DNA from: a virus
Reading direction: 5' to 3' (one strand)
DNA: 64,000 nt
Virus record (IMG/VR): IMGVR_UViG_3300047472_000309
Span: 1-64,000 of that record
Shown: piece by piece, positions 5,934 through 6,720 of the stretch
How the letters are laid out: each line of letters opens with the position of its first letter
Position numbering within the stretch: position 1 is the first letter of the stretch
The notes under the pieces: model-generated
What the model was told of the DNA's origin: nothing
Database searches by the model: none
The model's input: the letters and a program-made list of their open reading frames with translations, nothing else
Made by a program: the position numbers and the translations under genes

Positions 5934-6409
5934 CAGTTCCACCGATCGCGTTTTCTGTTCTTGGGCAAGGCGGGCCGCTGGGAGCTTTTCCCAGGGTTAT
6001 TCACCTTGAATGCGGGCATAGCGTGTACAACTTCTGCCAAGCCCAATGGCTCGACGTCACTTCTCATGGGATGCACCATCCCAGTAAGTTTTTCCTGGAT
6101 CTTGCGCTCACTCATGCCGCGACTCTTAAGCTCAACGCGCAATTCTTCGGGTGAAGCAATCACAATCAGGGGCAACTTGGCAGCACGAATCGCCTCAATA
6201 ACGTGGGGTGCATGTAAGGCGTGCTCCACGTAAAGAATCGGCAACTCCCGGAAAGCACCTTTATGCTGGGACGTGAGCTCCATGACAGGGGTGCCATCCG
6301 GTAGCGCCACGGTGAGGGGTTCGATGCTCTGGTCGATCGGCTCCAAATAAGCCTTGGTCGCTTCGCGCAGCTGCTCGATGACCCGCGCGCATTCTTCATC
6401 CCGGTTCAT
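5933..6409 (-). CDS. Unknown early protein with basic Trp tail
   Basis: 158 residues; the ATG at 6409 has an excellent GGAGG eight bases upstream and overlaps the end of the gene before it by four bases. Mixed alpha/beta composition with a possible small Rossmann-like segment ([22 protein letters not shown]). The last residues, [11 protein letters not shown], resemble the basic, tryptophan-containing tails of several other proteins in this operon. Family not recognised. Confidence 0.78.
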   Translation of the reverse strand: [158 protein letters not shown]

Positions 6410-6720
6410 TCCCACCACCTCCCTTTCTTGTAGCGTGAGCCCGACTTCGGCCCATGCTTACGTTTCTTCTTACCCCGGCGTTCATCGCGTGAACGATAGT
6501 CTTCCATCGGACCCTGATTCATGTTGGTGTATGTCTTGGCTCCGGTGCTCGCGTTCCCGTACAACGCCACGCTACTGGTATCGTTAACTGCTGCCTGAAG
6601 GGCGATCTGAACCGCAGCGCTGCGTAAGAGCGAACGGGCGTAGCCTGTACGGCCACCCGGCAAGATATGGCCGATGGTGCCCACATTCACGTGCGGCTTG
6701 GTGCGCTCAAACTTCGCCAT
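6406..6720 (-). CDS. Early protein with an EF-Tu N-terminal mimic
   Basis: 104 residues. After Met-Ala, residues 3-18 read [16 protein letters not shown], which equals the N-terminus of bacterial elongation factor Tu ([20 protein letters not shown] in betaproteobacteria, from memory) except for a two-residue deletion. In EF-Tu the next residues VDHGKT form the GTP-binding P-loop; here they are ILPGGRTG, so the site cannot be a normal GTPase. The rest is unrelated to EF-Tu: a helix ([19 protein letters not shown]), then a strongly basic tail ending RYKKGRWWE. The start is certain: ATG at 6720 follows GGAGGAG seven bases away and overlaps the previous stop by 14 bases. Eighth gene of the early operon, so made at the beginning of infection. 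Role unknown; decoy or competitor for an EF-Tu partner is inference. Confidence 0.85.
   Translation of the reverse strand: [104 protein letters not shown]

Follow-up and report, generated by a model that had tools for sequence, protein, structure and literature searches.

The N-terminal stretch of the elongation factor EF-Tu is, under the name of elf18, a specific linear ligand in plants, where its reader is an immune receptor. This peptide is named in PMC4855242. The hosts of most phages discussed below are bacteria without ties to plants, and a plant role, which the earlier note thought unlikely, has no support, no link to elf18 having been found. Another known case is the Gol-Lit system, in which the Gol peptide of T4 gp23 binds domains II/III of EF-Tu and triggers its cleavage by Lit, a protease of prophage e14, between Gly59 and Ile60 of the switch I sequence RGITI during T4 exclusion (PMC3014915). 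There as here, the central players are EF-Tu and a short peptide made by the phage, and the Lit cleavage sequence is resembled by three of the phage proteins described in this work, but these proteins copy EF-Tu itself, and mostly without the cleavage site. Since most of them lack the Lit site, and since the Lit domain (PF10463) was found in 0 of 148 Vibrio genomes, a search that had no positive control, the general reader of the copied peptide is probably a protein other than Lit.

The gene studied here lies in a window of 64,000 nucleotides (i.e., the whole stretch of DNA analysed) taken from a viral record of 310,654 bp, and encodes a small protein (Table 1) whose description in the earlier note holds when compared with TufA of E. 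coli MG1655. Its residues 3-18 are identical to residues 5-20 of EF-Tu (Met1 counted), the two residues EK being absent after Met-Ala when compared with the EF-Tu start MAKEKFERT; the P-loop VDHGKT is destroyed, with ILPGGRTG in its place; and the remainder is not EF-Tu and is basic, with a net charge of +11 in its final 30 residues. Sixteen identical residues in a row are far beyond what chance could produce. The ribosome binding site noticed earlier does precede the ATG, and the first 14 nt of the gene overlap the 3′ end of its upstream neighbour.

Table 1. Features of the mimic gene and of its operon (positions in the window).
Feature	Position	Strand	Description or basis
ORF with EF-Tu N-terminal mimic	6406..6720	-	104 aa, ATG start; homologue of FLC9 gp386 (BDD79905.1)
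EF-Tu-identical segment, residues 3-18 of the 104-aa protein	6667..6714	-	comparison with EF-Tu; dN 0, dS 1.4 against FLC9
P-loop position, now ILPGGRTG	6643..6666	-	translation, family alignment
Conserved basic C-terminal part TYTNMN...YKKGRWWE of the 104-aa protein	6409..6534	-	family comparison
Ribosome binding site GGAGGAG, 5′ of the ATG of the 104-aa ORF	6721..6735	-	sequence
Upstream overlapping gene	6707..6997	-	96 aa, four-cysteine (zinc-ribbon-like) pattern, PHROG 8931
Downstream overlapping gene	5933..6418	-	161 aa, function unassigned, C-terminus KNRKRDRWN
Next operon gene	5298..5942	-	214 aa, function unassigned
Nuclear shell protein (chimallin family, PHROG 4795)	3132..5042	-	profile match E 1.5e-108

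The nuclear shell gene stands three genes downstream of the mimic, with RNA polymerase and DNA polymerase genes nearby, and by these genes the window phage is a nucleus-forming jumbo phage. Its closest named relative is Burkholderia phage FLC9, with 80% identity in the shell protein. The position of the operon beside the shell gene suggests that it is expressed early. Several small proteins of this phage (5933-6418, 6406-6720, 7225-7473 and 8011-8265, all on the minus strand) have basic, Trp-bearing tails at or near their C-terminus.

No GTP_EFTU domain (PF00009) was found in the window protein at the Pfam gathering score, nor is any encoded in the whole genome of the window phage. Of the features that make a translational GTPase, the protein has neither the P-loop with its nucleotide-binding lysine (GHVDHGK[ST]) nor a complete G domain with domains II/III. 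What it does have is the core [VI]NVGT[IV]GH in an otherwise non-EF-Tu phage protein, and its genome contains one single site of the degenerate NVGT[IV]GH DNA pattern. The xD[HWYF]G that follows this core in other phage proteins is absent (the sequence reads GHILPGG in the window and GHYSPGS in FLC9), and the window family is a variant that lost Asp21 and His22 but, like several Vibrio families, kept the upstream KFERTKPH.

Full-length homologues of the window protein, with 60-100% identity, were found in FLC9 and in six IMG/VR contigs, and the EF-Tu segment, whose absence from related phages would, together with a frame that is not translated, have made of it a random recombination scar according to the earlier note, is present in them. 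Between the window and FLC9, the 16 EF-Tu codons have undergone 7 synonymous and 0 nonsynonymous changes, whilst dN reaches 0.47 in the middle of the protein and 0.26 in its C-terminal third, which makes the EF-Tu segment the most conserved part of the protein. The remoter IMG/VR members show only V to I, N to S and G to A changes inside it. The mimic of this family is, by this pattern of codon changes, evidently old and under purifying selection at the amino-acid level, and a recent recombination scar is excluded. The earlier view of a mimic that is kept in an early-type operon gains from these figures as well as from the nuclear-shell gene nearby.

What the earlier note missed is the general recurrence of the graft, as well as the presence of additional peptides from EF-G and switch I. 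When the window protein, and then the EF-Tu N-terminus, were compared by tblastn with isolate phages, and IMG/VR was scanned twice with degenerate DNA patterns, small proteins emerged in unrelated phages that have the EF-Tu segment and differ elsewhere. These carriers belong to T4-like, lambdoid, Ackermannviridae and jumbo lineages, and include those of Vibrio phages (the Ackermannviridae 1.244.A and 207E48.1, as well as 150E35-1, Va2, pir03 and 355E48.1), of henriette 12B8 and 2.058.O, of Haemophilus Aaphi23 and Aggregatibacter S1249 (where the gene sits between ninB and ninG), of Pseudomonas Jeremy, Cygsa01 and PaBG, of Shewanella 1/4, of the Erwinia/Salmonella Machinavirus and Kwan, and of the T4-like Cronobacter VP8 and Serratia SP1, with many more from the IMG/VR scans. 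The carrier of the Pseudomonas putida phages Jeremy and Dolphis has 92 aa (L041, 1789-2067). Blastp after masking of the motif gave 57 clusters, and manual removal of SelB, of truncated EF-Tu and of probable chance matches left 46; this number is an upper bound on independent families, as remote homology (e.g., among Rossmann-like or basic-tailed clusters) would escape blastp, and some of the clusters kept, such as L075 (NVGTIGH[EAV]DLPA), could be due to chance. Candidates rejected altogether were Y11 and ECO95, which are SelB, and several ‘phage’ records that are bacterial contaminants with real EF-Tu. The window gene is thus one case of a general phenomenon, in which the same graft is found in dozens of unrelated phage proteins.

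Of the 46 clusters, 20 have the segment near the N-terminus, 23 have it internally and 3 at the C-terminus. Homologous proteins of one carrier family hold the motif at two different places, which suggests independent insertion; that it hops from protein to protein among related ~230-kb phages was not borne out, both carrier families tested being group-specific. The profiles of two phage families of unassigned function, PHROG 27465 (E 5e-16) and PHROG 12626 (E 9e-7), match the N-terminus of EF-Tu, and the window protein matches the first of them at 1.3e-7 through its EF-Tu stretch; the motif alone is common to these families and the window protein, their remaining sequences being different.

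True grafts can be told apart from chance matches. The 21-base pattern for NVGTIGH gave 118 stretches, against a chance level of 35 for the reversed peptide of the same composition. Among the 73 non-EF-Tu frames with NVGTIGH, an Asp follows two residues on in 50, and the D[HWYF] continuation, which was no part of the search pattern, in 44. The core across carriers reads [VI]NVGT[IV]GHxD[HWYF]G, i.e., the beta1/P-loop segment of EF-Tu. With VGTxGHxD as probe, 39 of 44 records match, 38 of them at exactly one site and the last with a second, chance-like site (VGTHGHED), whilst the backwards pattern had no site in any record; the probe misses the window relatives and 150E35-1, as their own motif departs from it. 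Hence there is essentially one graft per genome. Third codon positions of the motif are near-random across carriers, and it is therefore the peptide, not the DNA, that is conserved; a DNA-level element was rejected on the same ground. A query with EF-Tu residues about 50-80 brought up 14 records, all the listed ones being genuine EF-Tu or bacterial contaminants.

Over 46 representatives, and with positions 13-19 largely fixed by the search itself, Asp21 is kept in 89% and Gly23 in 82%, and position 22 is mostly His or aromatic, as opposed to 42% for the GTP-binding Lys24 and 13% for Thr25. Since these two P-loop residues are mostly lost, the carriers are not expected to be GTPases. Compared with EF-Tu (PF00009), the likeness amounts to 16 consecutive residues in the window protein and to an 11-residue core in the others; only the first ~20 residues are shared, the other G motifs and domains II/III being absent and the rest unrelated. 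AlphaFold models were too poor for a fold search in both the window family (pLDDT 54, pTM 0.17) and that of Machinavirus (pLDDT 43).

Some carriers bear further pieces of translation factors. Those of the ~230-kb phages also hold [ER]x[LIV]xYTG, which is absent from all other ORFs of their loci and agrees with the EF-G alpha1 sequence ERILFYTG in as many as 7 of its 8 residues; this peptide stands beside the EF-Tu motif in L079, L089, L124, L150, L152, L155, L159, L161, L063 and L110, and the L063 protein also has SAHTDIGK, to be compared with SAHIDAGK of EF-G. In 150E35-1, EQERGITI is exactly the switch I of EF-G, with similar sequences in Va2 and L146. All the pieces mimicked come from the start of EF-Tu/EF-G, within ~65 residues. 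The secondary matches are post hoc, and represent fewer independent families than the raw counts suggest: ungapped Smith-Waterman comparison of the carriers with E. coli proteins failed to set EF-G apart from controls, whereas a count of 8-mer identities did (Fisher 4e-6), with homologous carriers counted repeatedly and independent evidence from about five families. A PDB sequence search with the carrier peptides ‘ERILYYTG...’ and ‘GHSSLTSMCR...’ gave nothing useful; the second belongs to an extra peptide, GHSSLT[SA]MCR, that L122 and L168 share.

Carriers sit in accessory or early regions. Those of the window and FLC9 adjoin the nuclear shell operon, and lambdoid nin-type regions contain those of Aaphi23, L074 and L121. 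In such a region, the proteins of L074 (3050-3604, minus strand) and L139 join the start of EF-Tu to a nuclease domain of the YbcO type (PF07102), and ORF27 of Aaphi23 is like the linker, without the nuclease domain. In Machinavirus/Kwan (L037, L040 and L047), the graft gene is found near a macrodomain gene and, in L040 and L047, near acetyltransferase genes, as in an early accessory island.

This work shows mimicry of EF-Tu that is selected at the amino-acid level and recurs at arbitrary positions, essentially once per genome; the host target and the decoy action are what we infer from it. The interpretation we prefer, with a probability of roughly 0.42, is that the graft is a short linear decoy of translational GTPases occupying a host factor, likely a defence effector whose task is to sense or attack EF-Tu. 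The peptide would be displayed as a flexible or strand-like piece, not as a GTPase, and would serve as decoy or pseudo-substrate for a host protein that reads G1 segments and sometimes those of switch I or EF-G alpha1. Such a reader is suggested because the motif is linear and stands in any protein context, is present once per genome, is under selection as a peptide and is confined to the EF-Tu start, with extras from EF-G and switch I. An effector of defence or of abortive infection, sensing or attacking EF-Tu, seems its likeliest identity, because the carriers resemble accessory early genes in their behaviour and EF-Tu is already known as a target of defence, and occupation of this effector would leave translation intact during infection. 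The basic, Trp-ending tail of the window family may add RNA or ribosome binding. Several facts speak against the decoy. EF-Tu, the most abundant host protein, is so plentiful that either the decoy would have to bind more tightly, or the reader would have to see a form not displayed by folded EF-Tu, i.e., one that is unfolded, nascent or otherwise special; and the window family is without Asp21 and His22, which most other carriers keep. The low confidence of the two models, the negative result for PF10463 in Vibrio and PADLOC, which gave no match, stand on the same side.

Extended to its full generality, this interpretation would have a widespread bacterial immune factor read EF-Tu residues 12-23 (and sometimes EF-G alpha1 or switch I), against which phages of many lineages repeatedly grafted decoys of the self-peptide, a proposal that we make tentatively and with more doubt than confidence. 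The motif in so many unrelated phage proteins implies an undescribed host reader, for the discovery of which it may serve as bait, and offers a sequence signature by which ‘hypothetical’ phage genes can be grouped by the dozen. Viruses of eukaryotes commonly mimic housekeeping proteins of their hosts with linear motifs, and phages would be doing so too. No description of phage EF-Tu mimicry or of the motif strings was found in open-access full text; molecular mimicry is known as such, and its recurrence in phage proteins as a linear EF-Tu motif is new as far as we could find.

The alternative that survives best, though rather unlikely, is that the peptide recruits or occupies a factor for nascent or unfolded EF-Tu and EF-G (a chaperone, protease, modifying enzyme or EF-Ts) and thereby aids takeover without blocking any defence. 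That all mimicked pieces lie so close to the start of these proteins would suit it, and so would a reader of unfolded chains, as folded EF-Tu hides the NVGTIGH strand in its interior; besides, some carriers have persisted throughout entire phage groups, as in Machinavirus. A general chaperone, however, would not require so exact a sequence, and a generally useful tool would not be so rare across phages.

Quite improbable in our view is direct action on translation, where the peptide would disturb the folding or function of EF-Tu/EF-G, or the ribosomal GTPase-associated centre, to shut the host off, with the basic tail binding rRNA. The pieces mimicked are indeed G1 and switch-I segments of translational GTPases, and C-terminal 30-mers with a net charge of +5 or more occur in 13 of the 46 kept clusters, but phages themselves need EF-Tu, many carriers have no basic tail, and the window family keeps KFERTKPH without the ribosome-contacting P-loop. 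As a general trait of carriers, basic tails and GR[WY] ends were rejected, being recurrent but not general; GR[WY] or NRW ends are seen in the carriers of Shewanella 1/4, 355E48.1, L086, L146 and L181.

Neutral recombination scars or chance matches, and likewise a borrowed translation start, are practically excluded. For the former, which we hold to be very improbable, one could invoke the ~35 chance matches to NVGTIGH that the reversed-peptide control predicts in the collection, and the ~40 residues from P-loop to switch I in Va2, which is the EF-Tu spacing and would be expected of a captured EF-Tu fragment; purifying selection, the many unrelated carriers, the D[HWYF] continuation and the grafting of the first EF-Tu segment alone all contradict it. 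Of the roles proposed in the earlier note, decoy or competitor stands as the most economical function, whilst a tuf start region captured for efficient initiation of translation, the least credible explanation of all, agrees with the N-terminal place of the segment in the window family and in some 20 of the 46 clusters but not with the other clusters (23 internal and 3 C-terminal, i.e., about half of the carrier families), nor with free wobble positions, by which the mRNA sequence is not kept.

Outside phages, the matches listed for the EF-Tu N-terminal peptide in plasmids were translation factors, proteins of the Tet(M/O/S) type and sites that lack annotation, and nothing else. Among 84,980 species genomes, a motif whose position 22 is Tyr, Trp or Cys occurs at four loci only; one of them is an ORF of 73 aa (L181, 4973-5194, plus strand), which stands alone on a plasmid of Vibrio breoganii, outside any obvious prophage, and ends in RKRNRKNRWS. 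In L120, a 558-aa terminase-like protein (domain assigned by eye) appears to start with a graft-like sequence. Separate from the short grafts, full-length EF-Tu ORFs are found on very large IMG/VR viral contigs of 430-620 kb (L054, L087, L111, L116 and others).
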